Source: Pelagibacteraceae bacterium AG-390-D18
GTDB taxonomy: Bacteria > Pseudomonadota > Alphaproteobacteria > Pelagibacterales > Pelagibacteraceae
Reading direction: 5' to 3'
Length of the DNA stretch: 36,280 nt
Assembly (NCBI GenBank): GCA_003279715.1
Contig: QCGY01000014.1
Span: forward strand, 1-36,280
Part shown: positions 1,063 through 20,830 of the stretch, one piece after another
Layout of the letters: the number at the start of each line of letters is the position of its first letter
Position numbering within the stretch: the first letter of the stretch is position 1
Made by a program: the position numbers and the translations under genes
The notes under the pieces: model-generated
What the model was told of the DNA's origin: nothing
The model's input: the letters and a program-made list of their open reading frames with translations, nothing else
Database searches by the model: none

Positions 1063-1067
1063 TCTTA

Positions 1068-1604
1068 ATGCAAGTTGTAGATAAAATAATATCAAATTTT
1101 GTAAATAATAAATCTCTTTATATTGGTGAAAAAGTCACCATGTCGGAACACATGATACAAACTGCAATGCTAGCTGAAAAAGCAAAATGTGATGATAATT
1201 TAATTTGTTCATGTTTATTGCACGATTATGGTCATTTTATTTTAGAAAAACCAGAAGAGTTGGTTAAACTAAATGTAGACGGTCACCATGAAAATATAGG
1301 TTATGAATATTTAAAAAGTTTTTTTAAAAAAGAGATATTAGAGCCAATAAAATACCATGTTTTAGCAAAAAGATATTTGGCAAAAGATAAAAAGTACTTT
1401 GATCTTTTGTCAGATGCTTCTAAAACAAGCTTAAAACTTCAAGGTGGTGTATTAAATCAAGAGGAGAGTAATAAATTTGAAGCTCAAGAATATTTTAAAC
1501 CTTCAATACTTCTTAGAAAGTTTGATGAGGCAGCGAAAAGAATTGACCTTAAAATGAAATCTATTCATGACTATCAAAAGTTGCTAACTTCTAAACTTAT
1601 ATGA
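1068..1604 (+). CDS. PhnZ/TmpB-like HD-domain protein, probable diiron oxygenase
   Basis: 178 residues, HD fold. Residue spacing tracks the PhnZ oxygenase: Y18-x-x-E21 (the substrate-responsive Tyr and Glu), H28, H52-D53 with H56 ('HDYGH'), H74, H97 with K101, and R150-x-x-D153. These match my recollection of PhnZ Y24/E27, H34, H58/D59/H62, H80, H104/K108 and R158/D161 with near-constant offsets. The Y-x-x-E and the H-x3-K elements are not expected in ordinary HD phosphohydrolases, so a mixed-valence diiron oxygenase of the MIOX/PhnZ type is favoured. Members oxidise 1-hydroxyphosphonates and break the C-P bond. It lies 5 nt after a TauD-family oxygenase and overlaps the following GMC gene by 4 nt (ATGA). 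The actual substrate is unknown; a nucleotide-type HD hydrolase is the main alternative. Confidence 0.75.
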   Translation: MQVVDKIISNFVNNKSLYIGEKVTMSEHMIQTAMLAEKAKCDDNLICSCLLHDYGHFILEKPEELVKLNVDGHHENIGYEYLKSFFKKEILEPIKYHVLAKRYLAKDKKYFDLLSDASKTSLKLQGGVLNQEESNKFEAQEYFKPSILLRKFDEAAKRIDLKMKSIHDYQKLLTSKLI

Positions 1605-3181
1605 AATTTGATTATCTAATTATTGGAGCTGGTTCAGCTGGATGTGTTCTTGCAAATCGACTATCTAAAGATAGTCAAAATAACGTTGCTGTTTTTGAGG
1701 CTGGAAAACCAAGTGATATTTGGAAAGTTAATATGCCCCTTGCAATTCTTTATACAATGCATGATCCAAAATATAATTATAAATATTATTCAGAGCCAGA
1801 ACCTCATTTAAATAATAGAAATCTTTTTTGTCCAAGAGGAAAAATGATTGGGGGTTGCTCCGCTCATAATGGAATGGTTTATGTAAGAGGAAATCCAAAT
1901 GATTATGAAAGATGGGCTTCTTTTGGTTTGAAAGACTGGTCTTATGATAAAGTTTTACCCTATTTTAAAAAAATTGAAACTTGGTCAGAAGGGGAAAATG
2001 ATTACAGAGGTGGAAATGGAATTTTACCGGTAAACCAATCAAAAAATAAAAATCCTTTATTTAAAGCTTTTATAAATTCAGCCGGGGAAGCAGGTTATAA
2101 AATTAATGATGATATGAATGGTAAAGATCAAGAAGGTTTTGGTATGTACGATGTAACCATTCACAAAGGAGAGCGTGCAAGTGTCTCTAAATATTATTTA
2201 AATCCTGCAAAAAAAAGAAAAAATTTAAGTGTTTTTACTGATGCTTTTGTTGAGAAGATTATTTTCGATGGAAAAAAAGCAATTGGTATTGAAGTAAAAA
2301 TTAAAAATAAAGTTGAAAAAATTTATGCAAATAAAGAAGTTATCCTTAGTGGTGGTGCAATAAATTCTCCACAATTACTAATGCTTTCAGGAGTTGGACC
2401 AAGTGAACATCTTAAAGATAAAGGAATTGATGTCGTTCATAACCTTGAAGGTGTTGGAAGAAATTTACAAGATCACTTAGAAACATATGTTCAACAAGAG
2501 TGTAAAACTTCAGACACTCTATATTCTTATGTAAATAAGCTAAATATGATGAGAATAGGTATCCAGTGGTTTTTATCTAGAACCGGTCCCTGCTCTACTT
2601 CTTTTTTAGAAGCTGGTGGTTTTTGTAAATCTTCACCAGAAAGAGAATATCCAAATATACAATTTCATTTTTTCCCAGCTTTTGTAATTGATCATGGATT
2701 AGTTGATCCTGACCGTCATGGTTATCAACTTCATGCTAGCCCTAATCATCCAAAAAGTAGAGGTCATGTCACTTTAAATAGTTCTAACCCTTATGATTAT
2801 CCAAAAATTCAATTTAATTATTTAGAACATGAGGATGATCTTAAGCAAACAATAGAATGTATTCATGTAGCAAGAAATATTTTGGGTCAAAATTCATTAA
2901 AACCTTTTGCTGGAAAAGAAATTGGGCCTGGAGAAAATGTTCATACAAATGAACTATTTGAAGAATATATAAGATCCAAAGCTGAAACAGCTTATCACCC
3001 ATCATGCACTCTTAAAATGGGAGTGGATAATATGGCTGTAGTAGATGAAAAACTGAAAGTACACGGTCTAGAAAATATTAGAGTAGTCGATGCATCTGTG
3101 ATGCCTGAGATTACAAGTGGAAACCTAAACGCTCCAACATTAATGATAGCTGAAAGAGCTTCAGAATTTATTTTGGATTAA
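1601..3181 (+). CDS. GMC-family FAD oxidoreductase, choline dehydrogenase-like
   Basis: 526 residues. The N-terminal Rossmann motif 'IIGAGSAGCVLANRL' begins near residue 7, and the GMC signature 'RGKMIGGCSAHNGMVYVRG' lies near residue 80. The substrate-domain 'FLEAGGF' segment carries E337. The C-terminal FAD/active-site block has H466 in 'AYHPSCT' and N510 in 'GNLNAPT', the His/Asn pair that choline oxidase uses for alcohol oxidation. The length is close to BetA (about 550). It probably oxidises a primary alcohol to an aldehyde or acid, feeding electrons to the respiratory chain. Choline is the best-known substrate, but the family is broad and no BetB-type dehydrogenase is next to it. It overlaps the HD gene by 4 nt and converges with the ureohydrolase gene, overlapping its 3' end by 14 nt. 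Confidence 0.85.
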   Translation: MKFDYLIIGAGSAGCVLANRLSKDSQNNVAVFEAGKPSDIWKVNMPLAILYTMHDPKYNYKYYSEPEPHLNNRNLFCPRGKMIGGCSAHNGMVYVRGNPNDYERWASFGLKDWSYDKVLPYFKKIETWSEGENDYRGGNGILPVNQSKNKNPLFKAFINSAGEAGYKINDDMNGKDQEGFGMYDVTIHKGERASVSKYYLNPAKKRKNLSVFTDAFVEKIIFDGKKAIGIEVKIKNKVEKIYANKEVILSGGAINSPQLLMLSGVGPSEHLKDKGIDVVHNLEGVGRNLQDHLETYVQQECKTSDTLYSYVNKLNMMRIGIQWFLSRTGPCSTSFLEAGGFCKSSPEREYPNIQFHFFPAFVIDHGLVDPDRHGYQLHASPNHPKSRGHVTLNSSNPYDYPKIQFNYLEHEDDLKQTIECIHVARNILGQNSLKPFAGKEIGPGENVHTNELFEEYIRSKAETAYHPSCTLKMGVDNMAVVDEKLKVHGLENIRVVDASVMPEITSGNLNAPTLMIAERASEFILD

Positions 3182-4151
3182 CACAGATTAAGCAGATTAT
3201 TTCAAACATAATTGCTGCAGCAACCATAGATGTAATTTGATTTGGATTATCTTTTGTTGGCATTAAGCAAGCAACATCACCACCAATAACGTTTTTTCCT
3301 TTTAAACATTGAATGAGTTTTCTTGCCTCATCCATATTAAAACCTCTATATGCTGACTCTATATTTGCAACCCCTGGTGCAACGGTGGGGTCTAAACAAT
3401 CTAAATCAAAAGTTATGTAAATAGGATTATCTCCTATTCTATCTAAAATCTTTTTTACACATTTTTCATGTCCCCACTCTCTATACTCATCCATAGTAAT
3501 TACTTGGTAACCATTATCATAACTTGCCTGTAACCAATCTAACGTTCTTGGATTTCCTCTAATTCCAATTTGAGTACTTGTATGAGGATCTACATTTCCT
3601 TGTTTAACTAAATATGATGCCCAATGTGCTGCTGATTTTTTTGCACCTAAAAAATGATCTAATTTTTCAAAACAATCTGTATGTGCATCAAAATGAAGAA
3701 ATGTAATTTTTTTTCCTTTAGTTAGTTTAGAATTTTTTTTTGCTAAACTTTGAACAATTCCTCCTGTGATAGAATGGTCTCCACCAATTGATACAACTGG
3801 CTTTTCTGCTTGTTCAATTTGATCATAAAAAGCAGAAATTCTCTCAATACATTTTTCATTGTTATTTGCTTCAGGAAAAGGAACATCACCTAAATCATGA
3901 ATTTTTTTCATTTTCCAAGGGTCAATTCCGTAATCTAAATGTGATCTTTTAAGCATTGCTGAAATATTTCTTACAGCTCGAGGACCTAAATGCTGATCTC
4001 TTTCGGTAGTACCATTTCCTGTGCTATGTGGAACACCCACTAAGGCAATATCACAGTTTTTTGGATCAGGATCATTTTTGCATCTAAATAAAGTGGGAAT
4101 ACCCCACCAATAAAGAGTATCCATCATTATTTGATCTTCTTCTGAAATCAT
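3168..4151 (-). CDS. ureohydrolase (agmatinase/arginase family), substrate uncertain
   Basis: 327 residues with the complete binuclear metal site of the arginase fold: H126 in 'GGDHS', D155/H157/D159 in 'HFDAHTD', and D249/D251 in 'FDLDCLDP'. The enzyme should hydrolyse a guanidino group to urea plus an amine. Substrate-specificity loops are unlike textbook SpeB: the early loop reads 'HSTGNGTTERDQHLGPRAV' where agmatinases usually have a Gly-Thr/Arg-Pro-Gly-containing loop. After the last metal ligands it reads 'PTVAPGVANIESAYRG' rather than 'PAFAPGTGTPEPGG'. Guanidinobutyrate, guanidinopropionate, agmatine or free guanidine are all open. It is divergent from the EamA gene at 4205 (53 nt apart). 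Confidence 0.85.
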   Translation of the reverse strand: MISEEDQIMMDTLYWWGIPTLFRCKNDPDPKNCDIALVGVPHSTGNGTTERDQHLGPRAVRNISAMLKRSHLDYGIDPWKMKKIHDLGDVPFPEANNNEKCIERISAFYDQIEQAEKPVVSIGGDHSITGGIVQSLAKKNSKLTKGKKITFLHFDAHTDCFEKLDHFLGAKKSAAHWASYLVKQGNVDPHTSTQIGIRGNPRTLDWLQASYDNGYQVITMDEYREWGHEKCVKKILDRIGDNPIYITFDLDCLDPTVAPGVANIESAYRGFNMDEARKLIQCLKGKNVIGGDVACLMPTKDNPNQITSMVAAAIMFEIICLICVNPK

Positions 4152-5164: not shown

Positions 5165-6133
5165 ATGACAAAAAACATAATTCCTACTATTAATATTTCA
5201 TCTATAGTAAAAAATGGTTTTGACAATTCAAAATCAATTATAGCTATTAATAAAATTAGAAATGCTTGTATTAATATTGGTTTTTTTCAAATTACAGGTC
5301 ATGGTATAAGTCAAAAAGATATTAAAAATATTTGTAAAATTGGAAATAAATTTTTTAATTCATCTGAAAAAAATAAAAAAAAATTAGCTCCAAAAAAGTG
5401 GAATAAAAAAAATAAGAATACATACAGAGGCTATTTTCCAAATAGCGTTAATGGTAAAGAAGGATTGGATTTAGGTGATCTCAAAATAACACCTCATAAT
5501 TTAAAAAAATACAGATCTCCTTTTATAGAGTATCTGGACTTAAATAAATCTTTTGATAAATCTTCTATTAAAAGTCTGTCAAATTATTTTGATGATATTT
5601 TTTCTTTAGGTGAAATATTGTTTAAAGGAATAATTAAGCTTTATAACAAAGATGATAGTATCAGTAATAGAGCTTTCTCAAGACTTAAAACTTTAAGTAC
5701 ATTAAGATTTAATTACTATCCTAATCAAACTAAACCAGTTGAAATTTCAAAACAAGATGGTGTAGCTCTTGGATGTGAAACGCATGTTGATAGTGGAGTT
5801 TTTACTGTTCTTTACCAAGATAAAAAAGGTGGTCTTCAAGTACAAAATAGAAAAAATAAAAAATGGTATGATGTGCCATTTAATAAAAAAGCTTTAGTGG
5901 TAAATACAGGAAGATCATTAGAGCTTTTAAGTAAAGGAAAGTTTAAAGCAACAAATCATAGAGTGTTATGGAACAAAAGTAAGAGATTATCTGTTCCCTT
6001 TTTTTTTGAACCCTCTTACGACTTTAAAATGAATAAATGTTTCCTAAATTCAAAAGAAAATTCAAAATCAGGGCAGATATATGAAAAATTTTTAAATCGA
6101 TCTTTGATGAAATTTGTCGAATATCAACGGTAA
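5165..6133 (+). CDS. 2OG/Fe(II) oxygenase, isopenicillin N synthase-like
   Basis: 322 residues. The N-terminal DIOX_N-type segment includes 'GFFQITGHGIS' near residue 38, typical of the IPNS/gibberellin-oxidase subfamily. In the C-terminal 2OG-FeII_Oxy domain the iron ligands are H207-x-D209 ('THVDSG') and H265 ('TNHRV'), and the 2OG anchor is R274-x-S276 ('KRLSV'). All cofactor residues are present, so it should be active. Bacterial members hydroxylate, desaturate or cyclise small molecules, and the substrate cannot be predicted. The start codon immediately follows the stop of the EamA gene, suggesting a transporter/oxygenase pair. Base composition is extremely A-rich in the N-terminal half (poly-Lys/Asn). 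Confidence 0.85.
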   Translation: MTKNIIPTINISSIVKNGFDNSKSIIAINKIRNACINIGFFQITGHGISQKDIKNICKIGNKFFNSSEKNKKKLAPKKWNKKNKNTYRGYFPNSVNGKEGLDLGDLKITPHNLKKYRSPFIEYLDLNKSFDKSSIKSLSNYFDDIFSLGEILFKGIIKLYNKDDSISNRAFSRLKTLSTLRFNYYPNQTKPVEISKQDGVALGCETHVDSGVFTVLYQDKKGGLQVQNRKNKKWYDVPFNKKALVVNTGRSLELLSKGKFKATNHRVLWNKSKRLSVPFFFEPSYDFKMNKCFLNSKENSKSGQIYEKFLNRSLMKFVEYQR

Positions 6134-6191: not shown

Positions 6192-7343
6192 ATGTCTAAA
6201 GTATTTGATTTATTCATAATAGGTGGTGGTATAAACGGAGCAGGTATTGCAAGAGATGCTGCGGGCAGAGGTTTGTCTGTTTGTTTAGCTGACAAAGGTG
6301 AGATTGGAGGAGCAACTTCTTCTTGGTCTACAAAATTAATTCATGGTGGCCTTCGTTATTTAGAAAATTATGAATTTAAATTAGTAAGAGAGTCTCTAAT
6401 TGAAAGAGAAATAGTGTATAAAATTGCTAAACCTATTTCAAAACCAATTCCTTTCATTATTCCTTATGTTGATAAAATTCGACCAGCCTGGTTAATTAAA
6501 ATTGGTTTATTTCTATACGATAACTTAGGTGGCAAAAGCAATATACCAAAATCAAAAACATTAGATCTTAAAAAAAAATTTCCAAACATTCTTAAAGAAA
6601 AATATAAAACTGGTTTTCAATATTTTGATATTCAAATTGATGATAAAAAATTAACAAAGTTAAATGTAAAAGATGCAAAAAGAAATAAAGCTAAAATACT
6701 AGAATACAATAAAGTAAAAAAAGCTGAAATTATTGATAACGAATGGGTCATTAGTCTTCAAAGTGGAAAAAAAATAAAATCAAAAGTTTTAATAAATGCT
6801 TCTGGTCCCTGGATAAATGAAACTTTAAAGAAAAATATAAAAATTAAATCTAAGAAAAAAATAAGACTAGTTAAGGGAAGTCATATAATTACAAAAAAAT
6901 TGTATAAAGCTAATATCGCTTTCACATTTCAAAATACCGATAAAAGAATAATATTTGTCATACCTTATAATAGAAAATTTTCATTAATAGGAACTACAGA
7001 AGTAGAAGTTAAATCACCTGAAAATAAAGGGATATCAAAAACAGAAACTAAATATTTAATTAATTCAGTAAATAATTACTTAAATAAACAAATTAGTACA
7101 AAAGACATTGTAGATACTTATTCAGGGATCAGACCTCTAATTGAAGATTTTAATACAGCTTCTAAAGTTACTAGAGATTATGTTTTTGATTTAAAGGTTA
7201 TAAAAAAATTACCTCTATTGAATATTTATGGAGGAAAACTTACTACCTATAGAAAGCTGTCCGAAAAAGTCCTAATTGACCTTAAAAAGTTTTTACCTAA
7301 GACAAAAAAAGGTCCATGGACTGACAAAAAGAAGCTTTTTTAG
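6192..7343 (+). CDS. FAD-dependent glycerol-3-phosphate dehydrogenase-like protein, short form
   Basis: 383 residues. The N-terminus has the GlpD/DAO dinucleotide motif 'IIGGGINGAGIARDAAGRG' near residue 9, then 'TSSWSTKLIHGGLRYLE', a hallmark of GlpD. Near the C-terminus, 'DTYSGIRPLIED' and 'IYGGKLTTYRKLSEK' complete the FAD-binding DAO domain. The protein stops at 'GPWTDKK', right where the roughly 110-130-residue C-terminal DAO_C domain of E. coli GlpD (501 aa) would begin. It probably oxidises glycerol-3-phosphate or a related substrate at the membrane and passes electrons to quinone. The downstream 120 nt hold no in-frame continuation, so the gene looks naturally short rather than frameshifted. 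Specificity may therefore differ from true GlpD. Confidence 0.8.
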   Translation: MSKVFDLFIIGGGINGAGIARDAAGRGLSVCLADKGEIGGATSSWSTKLIHGGLRYLENYEFKLVRESLIEREIVYKIAKPISKPIPFIIPYVDKIRPAWLIKIGLFLYDNLGGKSNIPKSKTLDLKKKFPNILKEKYKTGFQYFDIQIDDKKLTKLNVKDAKRNKAKILEYNKVKKAEIIDNEWVISLQSGKKIKSKVLINASGPWINETLKKNIKIKSKKKIRLVKGSHIITKKLYKANIAFTFQNTDKRIIFVIPYNRKFSLIGTTEVEVKSPENKGISKTETKYLINSVNNYLNKQISTKDIVDTYSGIRPLIEDFNTASKVTRDYVFDLKVIKKLPLLNIYGGKLTTYRKLSEKVLIDLKKFLPKTKKGPWTDKKKLF

Positions 7344-7466: not shown

Positions 7467-8636
7467 ATGAAATTTGGTTATTTTTGTAATACCACAAACT
7501 GGACACACAAACCTTATCACGAACTATTAGATGAAACTAGAGAGATTACTGAATATTGTGATCAGAACAAATGGAATTCTATTTGGTACACGGAACATCA
7601 TTTTAACCATGAAGGAATGGAATCTTGTACAAACCCATTAATGATGGGTACAGATGCTGCTGCAAGAACTAAACAAATTAGAATTGGTCAGGCATGTAAT
7701 GTAATTACATTTCATAATCCTATACAGATGGCCGAAGATGTGGCTCTTTTAGATCAATTATCTAAAGGTAGAGTTGAAGTTGGTATTGGTAGAGGAATTT
7801 ATGGAAGAGAAGCTGTTAATTTAAATATTGAAGCTGACATGAAAGATCAGGCTAAAAACTTTAGACTATTTGAAGAAACTTTAACTATTTTAAAGAAAGC
7901 CTGGAAAGAAAAATTTTTTGATCATAAGGGTGAATTTTACACTTATCCATCACCTGATTATGTTTGGCAGCATGATATGAGCAAACCAAGTAAAGAATTT
8001 ATGGATATGAAAACTAATGTAATGAAAAAAATTAGCGTTATACCTCAGCCATATCAAAAACCTTACCCGCCAATTCATCAAGTTGTAGATGGTATCAGGT
8101 CTATTGAATGGGCTGCGCAACAAGGCTTAAATATTATTATGTGGATACCAACAGTTAAAGCATTAAAAATTAAATTTGAAGCTTTCAAGAATGCAAAATC
8201 TGAGGCTGAAAAAAGAAACGTGCCTATGGGTGAAGGAATTTCACTTGTAAGAGATATGTTTGTTGCTGATACGATGGAAGAAGCTAAAGAAAAAGCTGGA
8301 GAGCATATGGTAAATTATATGAGATGGGTATGTCATTGGAGAGGTCTAGGAAATCACATGGATCCAGGTGAAGAACTTCCAGAAACTAAAGGTAAATTAG
8401 ATTTATTAAATTATGAATTTTTACACAAAAGAAATATGTTATTTGGAACTCCAGAATATGTTGCTGATAAAATTCATGAATTAAAATCCGAACTAAACTT
8501 ACAAAACTTACAAGTTTGGTCAAATTTTCCTGGAGTGAAACATGAAGATTGTATGAAAAGTATTAAACTTTTTACTGAAAAAGTTATGCCTCACTTCCAA
8601 GATGATATAGAGACTGAAGTCAAAAAAGTTTCGTGA
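7467..8636 (+). CDS. luciferase-like (LLM) flavin-dependent monooxygenase
   Basis: 389 residues from the ATG at 7467, chosen because AAAGGAGG lies 4 nt upstream; a GTG at 7425 would add 14 unconserved residues. The TIM-barrel LLM fold is shown by 'FGYFCNTTNW', 'WYTEHHF' near residue 45, 'TKQIRIGQACNVITFHNP' near residue 75, and 'LDQLSKGRVEVGIGRG' near residue 100. Family members use reduced FMN from a separate reductase to oxygenate sulfonates, pyrimidine or pyridine rings, aldehydes and amines. No flavin reductase is encoded nearby, so a reductase from elsewhere in the genome would be needed. It is the first gene of a six-enzyme cluster and overlaps the next gene by 4 nt (GTGA). Confidence 0.88.
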   Translation: MKFGYFCNTTNWTHKPYHELLDETREITEYCDQNKWNSIWYTEHHFNHEGMESCTNPLMMGTDAAARTKQIRIGQACNVITFHNPIQMAEDVALLDQLSKGRVEVGIGRGIYGREAVNLNIEADMKDQAKNFRLFEETLTILKKAWKEKFFDHKGEFYTYPSPDYVWQHDMSKPSKEFMDMKTNVMKKISVIPQPYQKPYPPIHQVVDGIRSIEWAAQQGLNIIMWIPTVKALKIKFEAFKNAKSEAEKRNVPMGEGISLVRDMFVADTMEEAKEKAGEHMVNYMRWVCHWRGLGNHMDPGEELPETKGKLDLLNYEFLHKRNMLFGTPEYVADKIHELKSELNLQNLQVWSNFPGVKHEDCMKSIKLFTEKVMPHFQDDIETEVKKVS

Positions 8637-10333
8637 TCAAATCACATAAGAAAATATCTGGTGGCCAGGCTGCCATTCAATCTTTAAAAAAAGAAAAAGT
8701 TGAACATGTTTTTGGTCTAATCGGTTCTGCTACAATGGAGATGTTTGATGCTCTTTACCATGAAAAAAAAATAAAATTTATTGGAGTAAGAGATGAAAGA
8801 ACAGGCACTCATATGGCTGACGGGTATGCAAGAGCCTCGAACAAACCAGGTGTTATAATAGCTGGACAAAATGGACCTGGGGCTACAAACTTAGTAACTG
8901 GTGTTGCTCAAGCAAAAGCTGCTTTTTCACCTGTAATTGCAATTGCTGGCTCTTATTCCACAAAAGATAAAATGGAAGATGCATTTCAGGGTCTTGATCA
9001 GAAATCTTTATTTACTCCGATAACAAAGAAAACCTGGACTGTTAAAAATTCAAAAATGATACCTAATGTTATTAGTGATGCTTTTAGCCTTGCAATGAAA
9101 CCTAGAAGAGGTCCAGTTTGTGTTAATCTACCAAGAAATATTTTAGCAGCAACAAATACTTATAAAATCAATACTAATAAGCCCTCTTTTGAAAGCGAGA
9201 GCAGTCTTAAAGGTAAAAATGAAAAAATAAAAAAAGCTGCAAAAATTATAAATCAAGCAAGTCAATTTGTAATAATTGCTGGTGGTGGGATTAAATATAC
9301 CGCTAAATATAAAGAAGTAATCAAACTTGCTGAATTGTTAAATGGACCAATTGTTACAGCAGCTGGGCATGGCGATGCCATTCCATTTAATCATAGACTA
9401 AATGCAGGACAGATGGGACCCCGTGGAAATCCTGTTGCTTCAAGACTTGTTAAAGAAGCAGATGTCATTTTAGCAATTGGGACTAGATTAGGTTTTAACT
9501 CTACTTTTTACTCTTATGACAACATAAATAAAAAAGCAAAAATTATTCAAATTGAAATTGAAAAAAAAATGCTTGGAAAATATTTTCCAATAGTTGTTGG
9601 AATTAATGCTGATGCAGCCACCACTACCAATCAAATATACAATGAAATTAAAAAACAGAAAATTAAATTAGATATAAAAAATTGGACAAACTCATATTTA
9701 AAAGAAAGAAAAGATTATTTAAGTAACAGAGATAGAGATAATCTTGGAAAAAACTTCCCTATTCAACCAAAAGGGTTATTTAAACAATTAAGAAAAGCTC
9801 TACCAAAAGATACTGCTATTACTTTAGATGCAGGAACACTTTGTTTGCAAGCAACAGATGCTTTAGAATATTATAATCCACCTTCATTATTTACACCTTT
9901 AGACTTTGGATTGGTGGGTTTTTCATTTGCTTGCGGTCTTGGTGTTAAAATCGCAAAACCTAAAAAAACTGTTGTCAGCTTGATGGGAGATGGTGGTTTT
10001 GGCATGACTATATCTGAATTAAGCACTGCTGTTGAATATGGAATAAACACAACAACTATTGTAATGAATAATCAAAGTTGGGGGGCAGAAAAAGCTTACC
10101 AAAAAGATTTTTTTGGAAAAAGATATTTGGGTGCAGATATTACTAGCCCTTCATTTGATAAAGTTGCAGAATTATATGGTGCAAAAGGGTTTAAGGTTAA
10201 AAAAATTTCTGAAGTAAATGAGGCTGTTAGAGCAGCTATTAAATCTAATAAACCTGCAGTAGTTGATGTTGATGTGGATCCTAGTGCATTATATAGTTTC
10301 AGAAGAGATAGTTTTAAACATAGGCAAAAATAA
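8633..10333 (+). CDS. ThDP-dependent enzyme related to sulfoacetaldehyde acetyltransferase (Xsc-like)
   Basis: 566 residues, GTG start overlapping the upstream stop. The three ThDP-enzyme domains are in order: N-terminal pyrimidine-binding (E55 in 'VRDERTG' as the activating Glu; 'GLIGSA' and 'GQNGPG'), central, and C-terminal pyrophosphate-binding ('GDG' at 452-454, 'NN' at 479-480). Features recalling Xsc rather than IlvB are 'FGLIGSATM', 'AGQNGPGATN', 'NNQSWGAEK' and the C-terminal 'FRRDSFK'. Xsc converts sulfoacetaldehyde plus phosphate to acetyl phosphate and sulfite. No phosphotransacetylase or sulfite exporter of the usual Xsc context is adjacent, so another 2-oxo acid or aldehyde substrate is quite possible. 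Alternative calls are acetolactate synthase-like or oxalyl-CoA decarboxylase-like. Confidence 0.8.
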   Translation: MIKSHKKISGGQAAIQSLKKEKVEHVFGLIGSATMEMFDALYHEKKIKFIGVRDERTGTHMADGYARASNKPGVIIAGQNGPGATNLVTGVAQAKAAFSPVIAIAGSYSTKDKMEDAFQGLDQKSLFTPITKKTWTVKNSKMIPNVISDAFSLAMKPRRGPVCVNLPRNILAATNTYKINTNKPSFESESSLKGKNEKIKKAAKIINQASQFVIIAGGGIKYTAKYKEVIKLAELLNGPIVTAAGHGDAIPFNHRLNAGQMGPRGNPVASRLVKEADVILAIGTRLGFNSTFYSYDNINKKAKIIQIEIEKKMLGKYFPIVVGINADAATTTNQIYNEIKKQKIKLDIKNWTNSYLKERKDYLSNRDRDNLGKNFPIQPKGLFKQLRKALPKDTAITLDAGTLCLQATDALEYYNPPSLFTPLDFGLVGFSFACGLGVKIAKPKKTVVSLMGDGGFGMTISELSTAVEYGINTTTIVMNNQSWGAEKAYQKDFFGKRYLGADITSPSFDKVAELYGAKGFKVKKISEVNEAVRAAIKSNKPAVVDVDVDPSALYSFRRDSFKHRQK

Positions 10334-10963
10334 ATGTCACAAAAAGATATTGGTAATAAAATTCCAATTTATAAATTAAAAGCAGGTAAGGAAGTTGAAG
10401 ATTATTATGACGAATGGACTGTTGAAAATAAATATGACAAGGATATGGTTGATTGGAAATATTCTGGACCTCAAGAAACTGTAGACCTTTTTAACAAACA
10501 TGTTCCCAACAAAGATATAAAAATTTTAGATGCAGGTTGTGGGACTGGTTTAGTAGGTATTGAGCTAAAAAAACATGGTTTTAAAAACTTTGATGGAGCT
10601 GATTTTTCACAAAAAATGCTGGACTTGGTACCAGAGAATATTTATCAAAACTTATTCAAAATCGATCTAAATAAAAAAGTTGATATAAAAGATAATACTT
10701 ATGATGGGATAACCTGCGTTGGTACTTTTACATTTGGTCACGTTAACCCCCCTGCTTTAGATGAAATGGTAAGAATTTGTAAAACAGGATCATTTATTTG
10801 TTTTACAATTAATCTAGGTATTTACGAAGAATATGGATTTGACAAAAAGATCAAAGAATTAGAAGATAAGAATTCTTGGAAAATAATTGAATTCTTTAAA
10901 TCAAATTATATTGCAAGCAAAGGAGTAAATGCTTGGTTAGTGTTAGCTCAAGTAACAAAATAA
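10334..10963 (+). CDS. class I SAM-dependent methyltransferase
   Basis: 209 residues with a Rossmann methyltransferase core. Motif I is 'ILDAGCGTG' (64-72), the acidic residue after strand 2 is D90 in 'GADFS', and motif IV-like 'GITCVGTFTFGHV' follows. The first 50 residues are Tyr/Asp/Trp-rich ('YDEWT'), as in Williams-Beuren-type small-molecule methyltransferases. It should transfer a methyl group to a small metabolite or free carboxylate; the target is unknown. The ATG abuts the stop of the ThDP gene, and the next gene starts 7 nt downstream. Its presence inside an otherwise degradative operon is odd: it may methylate a toxic intermediate or transfer a methyl group released in the pathway. 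Confidence 0.82.
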   Translation: MSQKDIGNKIPIYKLKAGKEVEDYYDEWTVENKYDKDMVDWKYSGPQETVDLFNKHVPNKDIKILDAGCGTGLVGIELKKHGFKNFDGADFSQKMLDLVPENIYQNLFKIDLNKKVDIKDNTYDGITCVGTFTFGHVNPPALDEMVRICKTGSFICFTINLGIYEEYGFDKKIKELEDKNSWKIIEFFKSNYIASKGVNAWLVLAQVTK

Positions 10964-10970
10964 AAAAATT

Positions 10971-11558
10971 ATGGATATTAACTTAAGAAAATTTACAAAA
11001 TTTGTTGATAAAACTTTCATTGAAGGTGGCAAAAAGGCTAATGAACCAGTTTTGTTAGTTTCGGTTGCTGCTGTATTTAAAAATCCTTGGCATGGACAAG
11101 GTTTTGTTGAAGATTTAAGACCTATAATTTTAGATTTAGCACCTAAACTCGGTGATTTATTAGTGCCCGAACTAATTAAAGAAATTGGATCTCCAGAAAA
11201 AATATTAGCATATGGTAAAGCTGGGGTAGTTGGTTTAAATGGAGAGATAGAACATGCTTCAGCTTTTATACATACATTAAGATTTGGTAATAAATTTAGA
11301 GATGCTGTTGGTGGAACTTCTTATTTAAGTTTTACAAATACTAGAGGGCCAGCTGGATCTAAAATTTCAATTCCAATGATGCACAAAACAGACTCTGGAT
11401 TGCGACCTTATTATTTAACACACGAATTTACGATACATGATGCTCCATTCGACGATGAAATTGTTATAGCAATTGGAGGAGCTTCAAGTGGAAGAGCTCA
11501 TGCAAGAACTGGTGATAGATATCAAGATATGAAAGAAATGGGTATTGAGCCTAAGTAA
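10971..11558 (+). CDS. PF06684 (DUF1185, 'amino acid synthesis') family protein
   Basis: 195 residues, the expected size of this family. Characteristic segments are 'KKANEPVLLVSVAAVFKNPW' near residue 21, 'YGKAGVVGLNGEIEHASAFIH' near residue 81 (Glu-His), and the C-terminal 'IAIGGASSGRAHARTGDRYQD'. Structures of the family show a variant of the chorismate-mutase-like fold. To my knowledge no firm catalytic role is established, although the Pfam name suggests amino-acid metabolism. The conserved Glu-His, the Gly/Ala-rich turn and the Arg-His-Arg cluster suggest an enzyme acting on an anionic substrate. It sits between a methyltransferase and an alpha/beta hydrolase in the luciferase-like monooxygenase cluster, which argues for a catabolic step there. 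Confidence 0.8.
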   Translation: MDINLRKFTKFVDKTFIEGGKKANEPVLLVSVAAVFKNPWHGQGFVEDLRPIILDLAPKLGDLLVPELIKEIGSPEKILAYGKAGVVGLNGEIEHASAFIHTLRFGNKFRDAVGGTSYLSFTNTRGPAGSKISIPMMHKTDSGLRPYYLTHEFTIHDAPFDDEIVIAIGGASSGRAHARTGDRYQDMKEMGIEPK

Positions 11559-11564
11559 TATTTG

Positions 11565-12347
11565 ATGACAACCGGGAATACTGCATCAGGTACTTTTTAT
11601 ATCTTCAATAAAAAAGAGCAATCAATCCCAATAGTTTTTATTCATGGTGTTGGTTTAACTTATGAAATCTGGCAACCACAATTAAATTTTTTTAAAAATT
11701 ACTCTAATCTTTCATATGATATTCTTGGTCATGGAAGGTCATCTTTAACAAAACAAAATATAAGTTTTGATGATTTTTCAGAACAGCTTATAGAATTAAT
11801 TGATGAACTTAAAATTAAAAAAATTCATTTAGTTGGTTTTTCAATTGGATCTTTAATAGCTAGAAATTTTGCAACTAGATATGGTGACCGATTACAATCA
11901 TTGATTCTTTTAGGTTCAATATACAAACGATCTGAACAACAACAAAAAATAGTTAATGAAAGATTTGATCAAGCTAAAAAAGAATTAAAACTCTCAAGAC
12001 AAGCGTTGAAAAGATGGTTTACAGACAAATATTTAGAAAATAACCCTGATACTTATAAAAAAATTAGTTCAATTTTATCTGCAAATAATATGGCTAATTT
12101 TTTAAAAGTTTATGAGTTATTTGTTAGACATAAAAATGATGAAGACTTTGAAAAAATCTATTGCAAAACCTTAGTAATGACTGGAGAACATGATATTGGG
12201 TCTACAATTGAAATGTCACAACAGTTAAACAACATAATTAAAAATAGTGAACTAAAGATCATCAAAGATGGTAAACATCTTTGTGGTATTGAGTGTGCAG
12301 ATGATGTAAATTTAGCAATCAAAAAATTTGTAGACAAAAATGACTAA
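11565..12347 (+). CDS. alpha/beta-fold hydrolase
   Basis: 260 residues from ATG 11565; a TTG one codon upstream is also possible. The catalytic triad from sequence is S93 in 'VGFSIGS', D210 in 'TGEHDIG' and H238 in 'DGKHLCG'. The oxyanion region is 'FIHGVGLTYEIW', and 'LGHGRS' follows the second conserved strand. This is the enol-lactonase/amidase-like size class. Related enzymes hydrolyse ring-cleavage products, for example E-2-(acetamidomethylene)succinate in vitamin B6 breakdown and the corresponding trigonelline intermediate. Position between PF06684 and an aldehyde dehydrogenase (8-nt overlap with the latter) fits hydrolysis of an oxygenated intermediate. Exact substrate unknown. Confidence 0.85.
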   Translation: MTTGNTASGTFYIFNKKEQSIPIVFIHGVGLTYEIWQPQLNFFKNYSNLSYDILGHGRSSLTKQNISFDDFSEQLIELIDELKIKKIHLVGFSIGSLIARNFATRYGDRLQSLILLGSIYKRSEQQQKIVNERFDQAKKELKLSRQALKRWFTDKYLENNPDTYKKISSILSANNMANFLKVYELFVRHKNDEDFEKIYCKTLVMTGEHDIGSTIEMSQQLNNIIKNSELKIIKDGKHLCGIECADDVNLAIKKFVDKND

Positions 12348-13821
12348 GCTAAAACAGTATAAAATGTTCATTAATGGGGAGTGGGTTGACTCGGAAAGTA
12401 AAAGAACTTTTGAAACTTTAAACCCAGAAAACAATGAACCTTGGGCAATTGTTCCAGAAGCAAGTGCTAAAGATGTAAACAACGCAGTTAATGCGGCACA
12501 AAAAGCATTCGAAGGTGAGTGGCCTAAATTACTTCCAAGAGAAAGAGCTAAATTCTTAAGAGCTATTGGAGATCAATTGAGACAAAACGCAGAGATGTTA
12601 GGTGAAATAGAAACGATTGATACTGGAAAACTTTTTAGAGAAACAAAAAAACAAGCAATCTATATTGCTGAGTATTATGATTATTATGCAGGTCTTGCTG
12701 ATAAAGTTGAAGGAACAGTTCTTCCAATTGATAAACCAAATGTTCAAGCGATAACTACAAGAATTCCAATTGGTGTTATTGCAGCAATCATTCCTTGGAA
12801 TTCACAAATGTTTTTAACAGCAACAAAATTAGCTCCTGCCCTTGCTATGGGGAATACAGTAGTAATTAAATCTTCAGAATTAGCACCCGCTGTAATGTTT
12901 GAATTTGCAAAACTTATTGAAAAAACTGGTATTCCTAAAGGAGTAGTAAATGTTATCACTGGCTTTGGTGATCCGTGTGGAAAAACTCTAACAACACATA
13001 ACTTAGTTGAAAAAATTGCTTTTACTGGTGGACCTGAAACAGCAAGACATATAATTAGAAATTCAGCAGATAATTTATCAGAGGTAAGTTTAGAACTTGG
13101 TGGAAAAAGTCCTGTTGCTGTATTTGATGATGCAGAACAAGAAAATGCAATAAATGGTATTGTTGCTGGAATTTTTGGTGCAAGCGGTCAAAGTTGTATA
13201 GCTGGTTCAAGACTTTATATTCAAAAAGGCATTTATGATGAATTTTTAGACAAACTCTCAAAACGTGCATCAAAAATTAAAATTGGTGCTCCTATGGACT
13301 CTGAAACTGAGATGGGACCATTAAGTAGTTTTAAACAATTAGAAACAATTGAAAAAAATATAAAAGCGACAATTGACCAAGGTGGAAAAATAAAGTGTGG
13401 TGGTAAACGACACTCTTTTTCTAACAAAGGATACTATTTTCCAGCGACAATTGTAGAATGCGACAACCATAATTTACCTGTTGCAGAAAATGAATTATTT
13501 GGACCAGTTCTATCTGTTATGAAATTTGACACTGAAGAAGAAGTAATAAATAAGATGAATGATAATCAGTATGGATTATCGTCTGGAGTTTATACCAGCA
13601 ATCTTTCAAGAGGAATGAGAGTTTCTAAAGCAATAAGAGCAGGGATAACTTTTGTAAATACTTATAGATTAATTTCTCCATCTGCTCCATTTGGAGGTAT
13701 TAAAGATAGTGGTTATGGTAAAGAAGCAGGAATCGAGTCAATAAAAGATTATACAAGAGTTAAAACAACTTGGTTCTATACTTCTGATGAACCTTCACTA
13801 GACCCTTTTTCAATCAGGTAA
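12340..13821 (+). CDS. NAD(P)-dependent aldehyde dehydrogenase
   Basis: 493 residues, standard ALDH superfamily length. The catalytic Cys is C286 in 'GASGQSCIAGS' and the general base is E252 in 'LELGGKSP', 34 residues apart as in typical ALDHs. The cofactor segment is 'PWNSQMFL' with 'FTGGPETARHI', and the C-terminal 'FGPVLSVMKF' and 'PFGGIKDSGYGKE' are conserved. It resembles betaine-aldehyde and semialdehyde dehydrogenases rather than acylating ones. It begins inside the last codons of the hydrolase gene (8-nt overlap). It likely oxidises the aldehyde made by an earlier step of this operon to a carboxylate. Confidence 0.92.
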   Translation: MTKLKQYKMFINGEWVDSESKRTFETLNPENNEPWAIVPEASAKDVNNAVNAAQKAFEGEWPKLLPRERAKFLRAIGDQLRQNAEMLGEIETIDTGKLFRETKKQAIYIAEYYDYYAGLADKVEGTVLPIDKPNVQAITTRIPIGVIAAIIPWNSQMFLTATKLAPALAMGNTVVIKSSELAPAVMFEFAKLIEKTGIPKGVVNVITGFGDPCGKTLTTHNLVEKIAFTGGPETARHIIRNSADNLSEVSLELGGKSPVAVFDDAEQENAINGIVAGIFGASGQSCIAGSRLYIQKGIYDEFLDKLSKRASKIKIGAPMDSETEMGPLSSFKQLETIEKNIKATIDQGGKIKCGGKRHSFSNKGYYFPATIVECDNHNLPVAENELFGPVLSVMKFDTEEEVINKMNDNQYGLSSGVYTSNLSRGMRVSKAIRAGITFVNTYRLISPSAPFGGIKDSGYGKEAGIESIKDYTRVKTTWFYTSDEPSLDPFSIR

Positions 13822-16148: not shown

Positions 16149-17519
16149 TTACTTTATTTCTATTTTTTCAGGAAGTATACCTTTAGGTCGATATCTCATT
16201 ATCAACAACAACCCAAGGCCCATCATTAAATATCTAAAGTAAGGAACACTCTCAATTAAATGAACTTTTAATGCATGTGTGTCTGCCATTCCAGCTGTAA
16301 AAAAATTTATCAAAAATAGTGCTATAGGTGCAGCCTCAATCCATAAAAACCAAACTGCAAAACCTCCAAGTATAGCTCCAAAATTATTACCACTTCCACC
16401 AACAATTACCATCACCCAAATAAGAAATGTATATCTCATAGGTCTATAACTTCCTGGTGTAAATAAACCATCTTGAGTAACTAACATTGCCCCAGCAATT
16501 CCAACAATTGCAGAACCCAAAATAAATATCAACAGGTGTTGTTTAACAACATTTTTACCCATTGCATTTGCTGCTTCTTCGTTGTCTCTAATAGCTCTCA
16601 TCATTCTGCCCCATGGAGAATAAAGCGCTTTTTGAGTTAAAATTAAAAGTATAATAACAACAATCAAAAATAATCCTGAATAACAAAGTTTAACAAATAC
16701 AGTTGATCCTTCTATTACCATTTGATTTAATGCTGCCTGACGATCTGCAAGATTAGAAATTAATGCTAATTTTCCTGAATTGAATTTTTCTACTAAATTA
16801 ATAAACCATTCAGTTGTTTGAAGGTCAACTTCATATGGTGCTGGTCTTTTTAAACCTATTACATTTTTAACACCTCTTGTTAACCAGTCTTCATGCTTAA
16901 TTATTGCAATTACAATTTCAGAAATAAGTAAAGTTGCAATTGCTAAATAATCAGCTCTTAAACCTAAGGCAACTTTTCCAACTATAAAAGCTAGCCCACC
17001 TGCAAAAAATGCTCCAACAATCCAAGAAAAGATAATTGGCAATCCAAAGCCACCTAAGAATCCTGTTTTAGCTGGATTAACCCCTTCTATCGCTTCAATT
17101 CCGGGTTCAGCTGTTATTCTAATGATTACAATTCCAGCAACTATAATTGCAGCTATTCCATAAGTTCTAAATTTTGATTTTTCAAAATTTTTTAAAATAA
17201 ATCTAATAGCAAATACCATTGCAATAATTAGCCATAGACACATTATGATATCAAAACCACCTGCACGCCATGCTTCCTGTACAGGATCAACTGAGATTAA
17301 AACTGCCGCTAAACCTCCAAGCGCTGTATAGCCCATAATTCCAAAGTTAATTAGTCCTGCATAACCCCACTGAATATTTGCTCCCATAGTCATTACTGCA
17401 GAAATCAAACAAAGATTAAATATTGATAATGCTACATTCCAAGATTGAAAAATCCCTACAAGAATTATCAAAGCCATCATGATGCTATAAGCAGCTATTA
17501 CATTTAAATTCTTTCTCAC
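16149..17519 (-). CDS. ABC transporter permease, LivM-type (set 1)
   Basis: 456 residues, GTG start overlapping the LivH stop by 4 nt. The hydrophobic helices carry LivM hallmarks: 'QWGYAGLINFGIMGYTALGG' near residue 49, 'LGLRADYLAIATLLISEIV' near residue 187, the coupling-helix 'AIRDNEEAANAMGKN', 'VGGSGNNFGAILGG' and a final 'RYRPKGILPEK'. It is about 100 residues longer than the second LivM in this window. The excess lies in the second and third helices and in a soluble-looking insert near residues 220-275 (after 'VIGLKRPAPYE'). It forms the inner-membrane channel with LivH for import of an amino-acid-like solute. Confidence 0.9.
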   Translation of the reverse strand: MRKNLNVIAAYSIMMALIILVGIFQSWNVALSIFNLCLISAVMTMGANIQWGYAGLINFGIMGYTALGGLAAVLISVDPVQEAWRAGGFDIIMCLWLIIAMVFAIRFILKNFEKSKFRTYGIAAIIVAGIVIIRITAEPGIEAIEGVNPAKTGFLGGFGLPIIFSWIVGAFFAGGLAFIVGKVALGLRADYLAIATLLISEIVIAIIKHEDWLTRGVKNVIGLKRPAPYEVDLQTTEWFINLVEKFNSGKLALISNLADRQAALNQMVIEGSTVFVKLCYSGLFLIVVIILLILTQKALYSPWGRMMRAIRDNEEAANAMGKNVVKQHLLIFILGSAIVGIAGAMLVTQDGLFTPGSYRPMRYTFLIWVMVIVGGSGNNFGAILGGFAVWFLWIEAAPIALFLINFFTAGMADTHALKVHLIESVPYFRYLMMGLGLLLIMRYRPKGILPEKIEIK

Positions 17520-18526
17520 AATACTTTTCCTTTAAATATTCCTGAAGGTCTGTAAAGCAGTACTATGACTAATATTGAAAATGAAACTGCAAATTTATAA
17601 TCCGTAGATAAAAGTTGAACTAAACTTTCAGGCTCCATACTTTCTGGCAAAATGTACATAAAGAATTTTTTATAAGCATAAGTTAAAAATATTTCTGAAA
17701 ATGCAATAACATATCCTCCTAAAAAGGCACCAAATGGATTTCCTATTCCTCCAACAATTGCTGCTGCAAATATAGGAAGCATATTGTTAAAATAAGTGAA
17801 AGGTTTAAAACTTTTATCCAGACCATACAAAGCGCCTCCAATAGTTGCTAAAATACCTGCTATTATCCATGTAATCATCACTATTTTTTTTGGATCAATT
17901 CCTGATAGTAATGCTAAATCCTCATTATCAGAATACGCTTTCATACTTTTTCCTGTTTTAGTCTTATTTAAAAACCAAAATAAAAGAGAAACTAAAATAA
18001 TTGTAACCAATATTGTTAGTACTTGAGTGGACTTTAATGCAAGCCCTTCATTAAGACCCGTCATCTCCTTAAATTCTCGAGCTTTAATAATAAATTTTTC
18101 ACCGTCAAAAAATCTTTGATCAGAAGGACCAATAATAATTCTTACTACAGCCTGAGTAACAAACATTACACCAATACTAACCATTGCCAGTTGAACGGGT
18201 GGACTCTTATTAACTCTGTAATATTTAAATACAAATTTATCTATAAACAACATGTAAATAATCATAAATAAAATTGCAAATGGAATAGCTATTAACGCTG
18301 TTGGCAACACTCCAAGTGAAATTCCAATTGATTGAAAATACCAAGTAAATAAAATAGTAACCATTGTCCCAAAAGACATCATGTCTCCAGTTGCAAAATT
18401 AGCAAATCTTAGAATTCCATAAATTAATGTAACAAAAATTGCACCTAATGCTAACTGAGAACCATATGTTAAAGCAGGAATAAAAATATAATTTAATAAA
18501 AGAATTATAGCATTTAAAAAATCCAT
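17516..18526 (-). CDS. ABC transporter permease, LivH-type (set 1)
   Basis: 336 residues, multiple membrane helices. LivH features are 'LALGAIFVTLIYGILRFANFATGDMM' across the first helices, the coupling helix 'KAYSDNEDLALLSGIDPKK', 'AAAIVGGIGNPFGAFLGGY' and the final 'LLYRPSGIFKGK'. It pairs with the LivM at 17519-16149 and with the ATPases immediately upstream (gap 2 nt). Longer than E. coli LivH (308), mainly through a central loop around residues 135-165. Confidence 0.9.
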   Translation of the reverse strand: MDFLNAIILLLNYIFIPALTYGSQLALGAIFVTLIYGILRFANFATGDMMSFGTMVTILFTWYFQSIGISLGVLPTALIAIPFAILFMIIYMLFIDKFVFKYYRVNKSPPVQLAMVSIGVMFVTQAVVRIIIGPSDQRFFDGEKFIIKAREFKEMTGLNEGLALKSTQVLTILVTIILVSLLFWFLNKTKTGKSMKAYSDNEDLALLSGIDPKKIVMITWIIAGILATIGGALYGLDKSFKPFTYFNNMLPIFAAAIVGGIGNPFGAFLGGYVIAFSEIFLTYAYKKFFMYILPESMEPESLVQLLSTDYKFAVSFSILVIVLLYRPSGIFKGKVL

Positions 18527-18528
18527 AA

Positions 18529-19236
18529 TTATCCCCCTAAAAAAGAGCTTCTTACTCTTGGATCATTTAATAATTCATTTCCAGTTCCTGAATATCTATT
18601 TTCTCCAGTTACTAAAACGTATCCCCTGTCAGAAATATTAAGTGCTTGTTTTGCATTTTGTTCAACCATTAAAATGGCAACATTAGTTCTTTTAACTTTT
18701 ATTATATGATCAAATAATTCATCCATAACAATTGGCGAAACACCTGCAGTTGGCTCATCCAACATTAGAACTGTTGGTTTAATCATTAGTGCTCGACCAA
18801 GAGCTACTTGTTGTCTTTGTCCGCCTGATAATTCACCAACTAATTGATTTCTTTTTTCTTTAAGAATAGGAAATAAATTATAAATTTCCTCTATTGTATC
18901 TTTAATTTCTTCATTGATAAGAAAAGCTCCCATTTCTAGATTTTCTTCAACAGTCATTCCAGCAAAAACATTTTTAGTTTGTGGTACAAAAGATATTCCT
19001 TCTTTGACTCTATCTTGAGGAGATAATTTAGAGATATCTTTACCGTCAATTTTTACTGATCCAGATTTTAAATTCAAAAGACCCAACATCGCTTTCATGG
19101 CTGTTGATTTACCAGCTCCATTTGGTCCAAGAATTGAAACTATTTCACCTTTGTTAACATTTACTGTGCAAGAATTAATTATATCAGGTCCACTACCATA
19201 GCCTCCTGTCATTGCGTTTCCTTCAAAATAAGCCAT
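18529..19236 (-). CDS. ABC transporter ATPase, LivF-type (set 1)
   Basis: 235 residues, as expected for LivF. Walker A 'GPNGAGKST' near residue 38, Q-loop 'SFVPQTKNVF', ABC signature 'LSGGQRQQVALGR', Walker B 'VLMLDEPTAGVSP', and H-loop region 'AILMVEQNA', where LivF proteins have Gln-Asn instead of the usual His. Start ATG shares one base with the LivG stop. It powers the HAAT-type importer together with the neighbouring LivG. Confidence 0.92.
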   Translation of the reverse strand: MAYFEGNAMTGGYGSGPDIINSCTVNVNKGEIVSILGPNGAGKSTAMKAMLGLLNLKSGSVKIDGKDISKLSPQDRVKEGISFVPQTKNVFAGMTVEENLEMGAFLINEEIKDTIEEIYNLFPILKEKRNQLVGELSGGQRQQVALGRALMIKPTVLMLDEPTAGVSPIVMDELFDHIIKVKRTNVAILMVEQNAKQALNISDRGYVLVTGENRYSGTGNELLNDPRVRSSFLGG

Positions 19237-20024
19237 TAATTTGAGTCCTTAAGTTTAGATCCCCTACCTAAATAACTTTCTATTACTTTTTCATCTTTTT
19301 TAACTTCATCTACAGATCCTTCAAATAAAACTGAACCTTCGGCCATTACAATAACTGGGTCGCATAATCTTCCTATAAAATCCATATCATGTTCGATCAT
19401 ACAGAAAGTATACCCTTTTTCTTTATTGAGTTTTTCGATTGCTGTCCCAAGATCTTTTAGTAAAGTTCTATTCACACCAGCACCTACTTCATCTAATAAT
19501 ACTAATTTAGCGTCTACCATCATAGTTCTGCCTAATTCCAATAATTTCTTTTGTCCACCTGATAAATTTCCAGCCAATTCATTTGATAAATGACTAAGAT
19601 TTAAAAATTCAACAACTTCTTTTGCTTTTTCTTTTACAATAGCCTCTTCCTCAGAAACTAGTTTTGGCTTTAATAGTGCGGTCATCAGTTTTTCGCCAGA
19701 TTGGTTTCCCGGAACCATCATTAAATTTTCTAAAACTGATAAATTTGAAAATTCATGGGCAATTTGAAAAGTTCTAAGCAAACCTTTTGAAAATAATTCA
19801 TAAGATGGAACATCTGTAATATTTTCTTCATCAAAGTTTACTGCTCCACTTGATGATTTTAAATTACCAGCAATTAAATTAAATAAAGTAGTTTTACCAG
19901 ATCCATTGGGTCCAATAATTCCAGTTATAGTTCCTCTTTTAACATTTAAAGAACAATCAGATACAGCTGCTAAACCACCAAAATATTTTGATAAATTGTT
20001 TATTTCTAGAATATTTTCTGACAT
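19236..20024 (-). CDS. ABC transporter ATPase, LivG-type (set 1)
   Basis: 262 residues. Walker A 'GPNGSGKTT' near residue 37, LivG-typical 'LRTFQIAHEF', signature 'LSGGQKKLLELGR', Walker B 'VLLDEVGAGVN' with Val in place of the usual Pro (common in LivG), and 'CMIEHDMDFI' with the switch His. First gene of transporter set 1, 5 nt after the ProC-like gene and in the same direction. Co-transcription with the ProC-like and GlaH genes is therefore likely. Confidence 0.92.
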   Translation of the reverse strand: MSENILEINNLSKYFGGLAAVSDCSLNVKRGTITGIIGPNGSGKTTLFNLIAGNLKSSSGAVNFDEENITDVPSYELFSKGLLRTFQIAHEFSNLSVLENLMMVPGNQSGEKLMTALLKPKLVSEEEAIVKEKAKEVVEFLNLSHLSNELAGNLSGGQKKLLELGRTMMVDAKLVLLDEVGAGVNRTLLKDLGTAIEKLNKEKGYTFCMIEHDMDFIGRLCDPVIVMAEGSVLFEGSVDEVKKDEKVIESYLGRGSKLKDSN

Positions 20025-20029
20025 TAAAA

Positions 20030-20797: not shown

Positions 20798-20830
20798 AAA
20801 TTTTGATTACTTTATATTGATTATATTGAA

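Follow-up and report, generated by a model that had tools for sequence, protein, structure and literature searches.

The tgnA-F genes of Acinetobacter baylyi are reportedly the genes for trigonelline degradation, with gene functions said to include flavin-dependent ring opening. Another described route, the Rut pyrimidine pathway, comprises RutA, a luciferase-like monooxygenase (LLM), together with RutC, the hydrolase RutD and the flavin reductase RutF; RutC has a chorismate mutase-like fold. Here we describe a six-gene cluster at positions 7467-13821 of a stretch of DNA from Pelagibacteraceae bacterium AG-390-D18, a member of SAR11, which outnumbers every other group of heterotrophs in the ocean. 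The window, by which we mean the whole stretch of 36,280 nucleotides (contig QCGY01000014.1), comes from a genome of 1.22 Mb in 33 contigs that is 82% complete. Like the tgn genes, the cluster brings together an LLM oxygenase, a tgn-type aldehyde dehydrogenase (ALDH), an alpha/beta hydrolase and a PF06684 protein. Judging from these families, we consider the chances about even that this SAR11 accessory island is an undescribed relative of the flavin-dependent, tgn-like ring-opening module. The six open reading frames (ORFs) that an earlier, sequence-only reading had listed were all found on a single strand, overlapping or abutting, as follows (spans are the complete SAR11 clusters described below).

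7467..8636, plus strand: bacterial-luciferase-like flavin-dependent monooxygenase (LLM), the proposed ring opener; constant core (PF00296, 3.1e-43)
8633..10333, plus strand: thiamine diphosphate (ThDP)-dependent enzyme; in 76/89 spans (TPP_enzyme N/M/C, 2e-34, 2.9e-31 and 1.8e-38)
10334..10963, plus strand: class I S-adenosylmethionine-dependent methyltransferase, optional; in 14/89 spans (Methyltransf_25, 8.6e-12)
10971..11558, plus strand: PF06684 protein, TgnF/HcdD-type; constant core (PF06684, 7.4e-64)
11562..12347, plus strand: alpha/beta hydrolase; constant core (Abhydrolase_1, 1.3e-21)
12340..13821, plus strand: tgn-type ALDH; constant core (Aldedh, 2.5e-160)

The gaps between these genes are -4, 0, 7, 3 and -8 bp. 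The LLM frame was called mechanically from a GTG at 7425; we prefer the ATG at 7467, because the LLM domain begins at residue 1.

We compared the cluster with 100 SAR11 loci, namely the best 80 of 502 relatives, a sample biased to close kin, and 20 hand-picked from 99 PF06684 carriers; two pairs of loci (L013/L160 and L081/L162) are an identical contig. We found that the complete span from LLM to ALDH occurs, in one order, in 89 of the 100 loci (87 of the 98 distinct ones). A check for scattered orthologs was negative, and all 89 spans in which both ends are present keep both order and strand, which upholds the proposal of the sequence-only reading that the genes form one conserved catabolic unit. 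In ten of the 11 remaining loci (L009, L012, L015, L023, L038, L044, L068, L069, L075 and L154), the span is incomplete or runs off the stretch; the eleventh, L008, is a 3.9-kb contig with the LLM and ThDP genes on the opposite strand, a layout that reflects either a rearrangement or an assembly fault. The constant core consists of the LLM, PF06684, hydrolase and ALDH genes. The ThDP and methyltransferase genes are optional; where present, the ThDP gene lies between the LLM and PF06684 genes, and a few spans (L014, L016, L021, L031 and L071) contain inserts or broken ThDP frames.

Median ratios of nonsynonymous to synonymous substitution (dN/dS) against SAR11 homologs were 0.068 for the LLM, 0.081 for the ThDP enzyme, 0.069 for the methyltransferase, 0.029 for the PF06684 protein, 0.121 for the hydrolase and 0.035 for the ALDH, with maxima reaching 0.50 (hydrolase) and 0.35 (ThDP enzyme). 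By these ratios, the six genes are under purifying selection and are more than chance ORFs. The residues that we inspected, which we take to be catalytic, were invariant with the exception of Asp211 of the hydrolase: E43-H44-H45 of the LLM (93/93 aligned rows), E55 and the GDG/NN residues of the ThDP enzyme (79/79), D66, G68 and G70 of the methyltransferase (17/17), H95, H101, H138 and H151 of the PF06684 protein (101/101), S94 and H239 of the hydrolase (98/98), and C286, E252, N154 and K177 of the ALDH (96/96). Position 211 of the hydrolase is Asp in 92 rows and Glu in 6, and H41 of the PF06684 protein is present in 72 of 101.

How closely does this core match the tgn module? We took the Acinetobacter locus L112 as a tgn locus on the strength of its gene set. 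The SAR11 ALDH is 52% identical to the LLM-adjacent ALDH of that locus versus 32% to the second ALDH there; it is by sequence of the tgn type (TgnC), with the corresponding activity predicted. Likewise, the SAR11 PF06684 protein is 54-61% identical to module-type members elsewhere (54% to that of L112). The hydrolase is a weak match, with 31% identity to the L112 hydrolase over 247 residues and 23-33% across the compared modules, and the SAR11 LLMs form a clade separate from the TgnB-type LLMs, with support of 100/100 on the parting branches. The suggestion of the sequence-only reading that TgnB, TgnD and TgnC are all present is therefore overstated: it stands for the ALDH, fails for the LLM and may or may not hold for the hydrolase. 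Because the ALDH and PF06684 proteins are much closer to their tgn counterparts than are the hydrolase and the LLM (25-27% identity to TgnB-type enzymes), the two systems would share the same later chemistry and differ in the ring substrate. The SAR11 cluster also differs from tgn in that it contains neither a flavin reductase (TgnA) nor a second ALDH, and in that it adds a ThDP enzyme, a methyltransferase and a 2-oxoglutarate (2OG)-Fe(II) oxygenase. Operons with the order PF06684-hydrolase-flavin reductase-LLM-ALDH, found on a plasmid of Chimaeribacter arupi and in Acinetobacter, with a split version in two rhizobia, contain the same four core families; they differ from the SAR11 cluster in the LLM clade and in having a flavin reductase, and no ThDP gene was seen in the fetched stretches. 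The likeness to Rut is one of outline (LLM ring opening, a hydrolase and a small chorismate mutase-like protein): the SAR11 proteins do not reach the RutA model (TIGR03612, 20.4 bits versus a cut-off of 498.3) or the RutD model (75.9 versus 238.5), and Rut is not known to include an ALDH or ThDP enzyme. More generally, the window LLM stays below the cut-off of all 25 listed NCBIfam LLM models, RutA, SsuD, DmoA/NtaA and SfnG types included.

The PF06684 protein scores 214.9 bits against a gathering cut-off of 27; its solved relatives are 2qtp and 3byq (Bacillus chorismate mutase-like fold family), and its AlphaFold2 model has a mean predicted local distance difference test (pLDDT) score of 41.7. 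In published structures, PF06684 proteins are hexamers with a chorismate mutase-like fold, and a role in amino-acid metabolism has been argued from fold and context, with branched-chain amino acid transporter neighbors included (PMC2954203). The sequence-only reading had treated PF06684 as foreign to the trigonelline route. This view proved mistaken: in a study of the PF06684 protein HcdD, TgnF of A. baylyi, which stimulates TgnE, is named as its homolog (PMC7913881), and the Acinetobacter and Chimaeribacter operons hold PF06684 together with hydrolase, flavin reductase, LLM and ALDH genes. According to the same study, HcdD is co-induced during degradation of 7-hydroxycoumarin, a lactone (PMC7913881). 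PF06684 occurs in 59 of 398 Pseudomonadota genomes, and in a neighbor survey of 30 short loci, nine had a hydrolase, LLM, ALDH or flavin reductase gene within 1.5 kb. With the SAR11 island, the family, labeled 'amino acid synthesis' from fold and context, gains a catabolic setting in which its partners are defined.

The ThDP enzyme does not belong to Xsc. Its best NCBIfam matches are the two Xsc models, NF005713 (415.4 bits) and TIGR03457 (399.8 bits), and it misses both curated cut-offs (620 and 676.4 bits). In our tree, it falls in an 18-row clade (support 100/99) that is sister to an 8-row clade holding five Xsc rows; the two share the WGAEK and C-terminal FRRD stretches, and differ in other active-site stretches and in gene neighbors. 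We therefore set aside both Xsc as the identity of the enzyme and the idea, raised in the sequence-only reading, of a sulfonate route that ends at it. By its position in the tree, the enzyme represents an unnamed clade sister to Xsc, and our analysis marks out this clade together with its informative neighbors. A match at 1e-90 was found in 20 of 385 alphaproteobacterial genomes, the window genome included. Among the six closest relatives outside SAR11 (58-64% identity), four (L165-L168) lie with a tgn-type ALDH and a hydrolase; the contig of L169 is cut off, and no module genes are seen in L170. These four modules resemble the SAR11 cluster in the ThDP enzyme (59-64%), the ALDH (50-54%) and the hydrolase (31-33%), and differ from it in the LLM, which is TgnB-type in three and was not seen in one, and in PF06684, seen in two of the four.

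Since two LLM types occur with the same ThDP partner, there would be one shared downstream step, which suggests that the ThDP enzyme takes up a product that both types of LLM route yield once the ring is open. Among more distant members (40-43%), those of L171 and L172 adjoin MttB-type genes, and those of Ruegeria pomeroyi and Ruegeria sp. THAF33 lie in a LysR-MttB-aminotransferase-FAD-FAD-ThDP run (FAD, flavin adenine dinucleotide-dependent oxidoreductase). L168 combines both settings: a DAO+GCV_T gene follows the ThDP gene, and an MttB gene lies on the other strand. Together, these N-demethylase-type neighbors (MttB and DAO+GCV_T) suggest N-methylated substrates. The Ruegeria-type run is of interest in its own right: L175:2351-11671 (R. 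pomeroyi DSS-3 megaplasmid) and L176:353-9662 show an operon-like series in which genes for an MttB-type methyltransferase and a class III aminotransferase are joined by two for FAD-dependent oxidoreductases and one for a ThDP enzyme from this clade, which looks like a quaternary-amine route with a ThDP step.

LLMs of the window family are 85-99% identical to the window LLM in ThDP-bearing spans (n=69) and 75-79% in ThDP-less ones (n=13), and the latter fall outside the window clade in the LLM tree, whose tally of 94 counts L122 and L123 twice. A second family (f238, 7 loci) has the ThDP gene and LLMs 56-58% identical to the window LLM. Beyond SAR11, an LLM match at 1e-20 was found in 41 of 385 alphaproteobacterial genomes, again including that of the window; in distant GC-rich stretches, where ORF calls are poor, we located gene neighbors by tblastn. 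One such alphaproteobacterium (L122) has the order flavin reductase-LLM-PF06684-hydrolase-ALDH, with an LLM 53% identical to that of the window and a Rieske oxygenase gene upstream. In L123, the core genes are dispersed over both strands with no single operon, and its ThDP match is a 22% paralog.

Of 297 Pelagibacterales genomes, 99 have a PF06684 match; among the 150 with a completeness of 90% or more, the figure is 49. Roughly one in three of the SAR11 bacteria sampled carries the island. Downstream of the ALDH gene, a DMT permease gene follows after 4 bp and a LivK-type binding-protein gene after a further 75, and the sequence-only reading had regarded both as partners of the cluster. We found, in contrast, that SAR11 genomes without the unit retain both at an empty site. 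In all ten PF06684-less SAR11 genomes that we chose, the window binding protein has a homolog (77-91% identical in eight, 43-45% in two), and the first eight share with the window the Liv transporter genes that come after it. Filled and empty sites differ by 4.2 kb in place of 63 bp (L062) and by 6.8 kb in place of 36 bp (L152), the latter insert spanning the 2OG-Fe(II) oxygenase to the ALDH. From this empty-site comparison, we conclude that the DMT and LivK genes are neighbors of the insertion point and not members of the unit, and that the core genes are accessory, gained and lost at a fixed site. Because the genes come and go in this way, the island would set apart a metabolic niche among SAR11 bacteria.

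The 2OG-Fe(II) oxygenase is a better-supported partner than the DMT and LivK genes. It and the adjacent gene are placed as follows.

5165..6133, plus strand: 2OG-Fe(II) oxygenase, optional linked partner (PF14226 and PF03171)
6192-7343: DAO-family gene, between the 2OG-Fe(II) oxygenase and LLM genes

Among the SAR11 genomes, 59 of the 65 carriers of the oxygenase also have PF06684, in 53 cases within 10 kb. The oxygenase occurs without PF06684 in 6 genomes, and PF06684 without the oxygenase in 40. The association is statistically significant (Fisher 2e-28, with related genomes treated as independent), a value that overstates its strength because the genomes are related. The oxygenase lies directly upstream of the LLM in 45 of the 89 spans and within two genes of it in 64.

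From gene set, gene order, conservation, presence or absence and family membership, we infer the following reactions, their order and a substrate class, using the steps of the trigonelline route as the pathway analogy. In the first step, the LLM, with O2 and with reduced flavin from outside the cluster, would open a heteroaromatic ring, most likely an N-containing one, to an N-formyl enamine that ends in an aldehyde or hydroxylactone group. The ALDH would then oxidize this end to an acid, after which lactone opening or enamide hydrolysis by the PF06684 protein and the hydrolase would set free formate and an amine, together with a small oxo compound, either an oxo acid or an aldehyde. Finally, in most carriers, the ThDP enzyme would channel the oxo compound to central metabolism; this step is the least certain, its basis being the sister relation to Xsc and the gene neighbors. 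The 2OG-Fe(II) oxygenase and the methyltransferase would supply optional tailoring steps. Because the island, which often includes the extra ThDP enzyme, looks tgn-like, it probably opens and uses a dissolved ring compound. N-methylated pyridine carboxylates fit both the module and the N-demethylase neighbors; trigonelline itself is disfavored by the LLM. More tentatively, and as a possibility that we think somewhat improbable in its full form, about a third of SAR11 would perform O2-dependent ring opening of a methylated N-heteroaromatic phytoplankton metabolite, ending at a new ThDP class, sister to Xsc, that turns an oxo compound into a central metabolite. Which dissolved compounds are open to SAR11 matters for carbon and nitrogen cycling in the ocean. 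We found no description of the SAR11 cluster in the titles, abstract openings and passages covered by our search of open-licence papers: the core families are known, and no account of them joined to LLM and ThDP enzymes of these two clades was found there.

Several observations weigh against a tgn-like ring-opening island. The LLM is only 26% identical to its counterpart in L112, so that the ring-opening role is transferred from remote relatives. In the 12 non-SAR11 stretches with this LLM type (L122-L133), other core genes are near in two only, L122 and L123. The ThDP gene is missing from 13 of the 89 spans, and the ThDP enzyme is for that reason non-essential to the core. No stimulating effect of HcdD was seen in the study of that protein (PMC7913881). 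The 21 other loci of the PF06684 survey (L082-L111) comprise 9 tandem pairs, 9 with a binding-protein neighbor and 3 without query genes; the tandem-pair and binding-protein loci are a second PF06684 context. Finally, PF01613 flavin reductase has no match in the window genome (82% complete), and 13 of 14 control genomes match; nor was a flavin reductase gene found in the cluster. Reduced flavin must therefore come from elsewhere in the cell. Two PF03358 proteins in this genome may or may not stand in as the reductase. We rejected as a candidate the 168-aa gene that precedes the LLM in L144-L149, the L145 sequence, judged by eye, being unlike a flavin reductase.

Four other explanations deserve consideration. 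The one that fares best, though we hold it to be unlikely, is a route of Baeyer-Villiger type that acts on a ketone or on a ring without nitrogen: the LLM would form a lactone for the hydrolase to open, the ALDH would oxidize the product and the PF06684 protein would assist the lactone chemistry. The trigonelline route, too, includes a lactone. Together with the induction of HcdD on coumarin, this gives both known PF06684 routes a lactone as a common thread (for coumarin, PMC7913881). Moreover, 3,6-diketocamphane 1,6-monooxygenase is among the solved relatives of the LLM (E 5.9e-12), in rank below bacterial luciferase types. Against this explanation, the ALDH is tgn-type and not generic, and the ThDP clade and the L122 module adjoin N-demethylase or Rieske-type genes.

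A second explanation, the trigonelline pathway proper in a SAR11 form, we regard as quite improbable. The LLM, PF06684, hydrolase and ALDH families are shared, and seawater particles contain 1 to 300 pM trigonelline, according to one survey (PMC8269262). By the clade and identity of the LLM, however, we rejected a tgn ortholog, the genome has no PF01613 match, and the cluster is without a second, succinate-semialdehyde dehydrogenase (SSADH)-like ALDH. We place at a similarly low level the proposal that SAR11 uses tgn-like chemistry to convert homarine (N-methylpicolinate) to 2-oxoglutarate or N-methylglutamate. Ring opening of a 2-carboxylate would, we reasoned, yield a C5 dicarboxylate, and homarine is described as an abundant marine betaine in the same survey (PMC8269262), whose published correction states that its homarine values were overstated. 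Nevertheless, a 2026 paper (Nat Microbiol) reportedly describes a different homarine pathway with an N-methylglutamate dehydrogenase, and Heal et al. deemed TgnA/TgnB-type attack on homarine sterically unlikely (PMC8269262). Least probable of all is a sulfonate route, in which the LLM would desulfonate or make sulfoacetaldehyde and the ThDP enzyme would, like Xsc, form acetyl phosphate and sulfite: Xsc supplies the best model matches and the two shared stretches, but the Xsc cut-offs are missed, the clades are separate and well supported with residues that differ at several active-site stretches, the alkanesulfonate monooxygenase model gives the LLM 33.5 bits versus a cut-off of 518, no phosphate acetyltransferase is among the eight genes scanned (two of five Xsc loci have one beside xsc), and the ThDP-less spans lack the enzyme altogether.

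Returning to the tgn-like island, we noted several features of its surroundings. In two SAR11 loci (L021:4234-5274 and L071:8920-9960), a 346-aa ORF with a signal-peptide-like start lies between the ThDP and PF06684 genes. In L075:4658-7093, glutamine-synthetase-type and MetX-like genes lie immediately before the LLM, and similar-sized genes occur in L052; they represent a possible link to amine assimilation. A GMAS-type methylamine link is no more than possible, the glutamine-synthetase-type gene of L075 being below the type III cut-off (358 vs 470 bits). Another LLM setting is seen in L115 (Sulfitobacter) and L116 (Peribacillus), where LLMs 28-32% identical to the window LLM are near ribB-type and lactonase-like genes. 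In the window itself, TauD-family dioxygenase, GMC oxidoreductase and arginase-family genes lie just upstream (223-4151), and this region holds many accessory catabolic genes. On the minus strand at 16149-21742, Liv-type permease and ATPase genes come first, then a P5CR-like gene and one for CsiD, of the glutarate hydroxylase family, and this stretch also adjoins the site in SAR11 genomes without the island.

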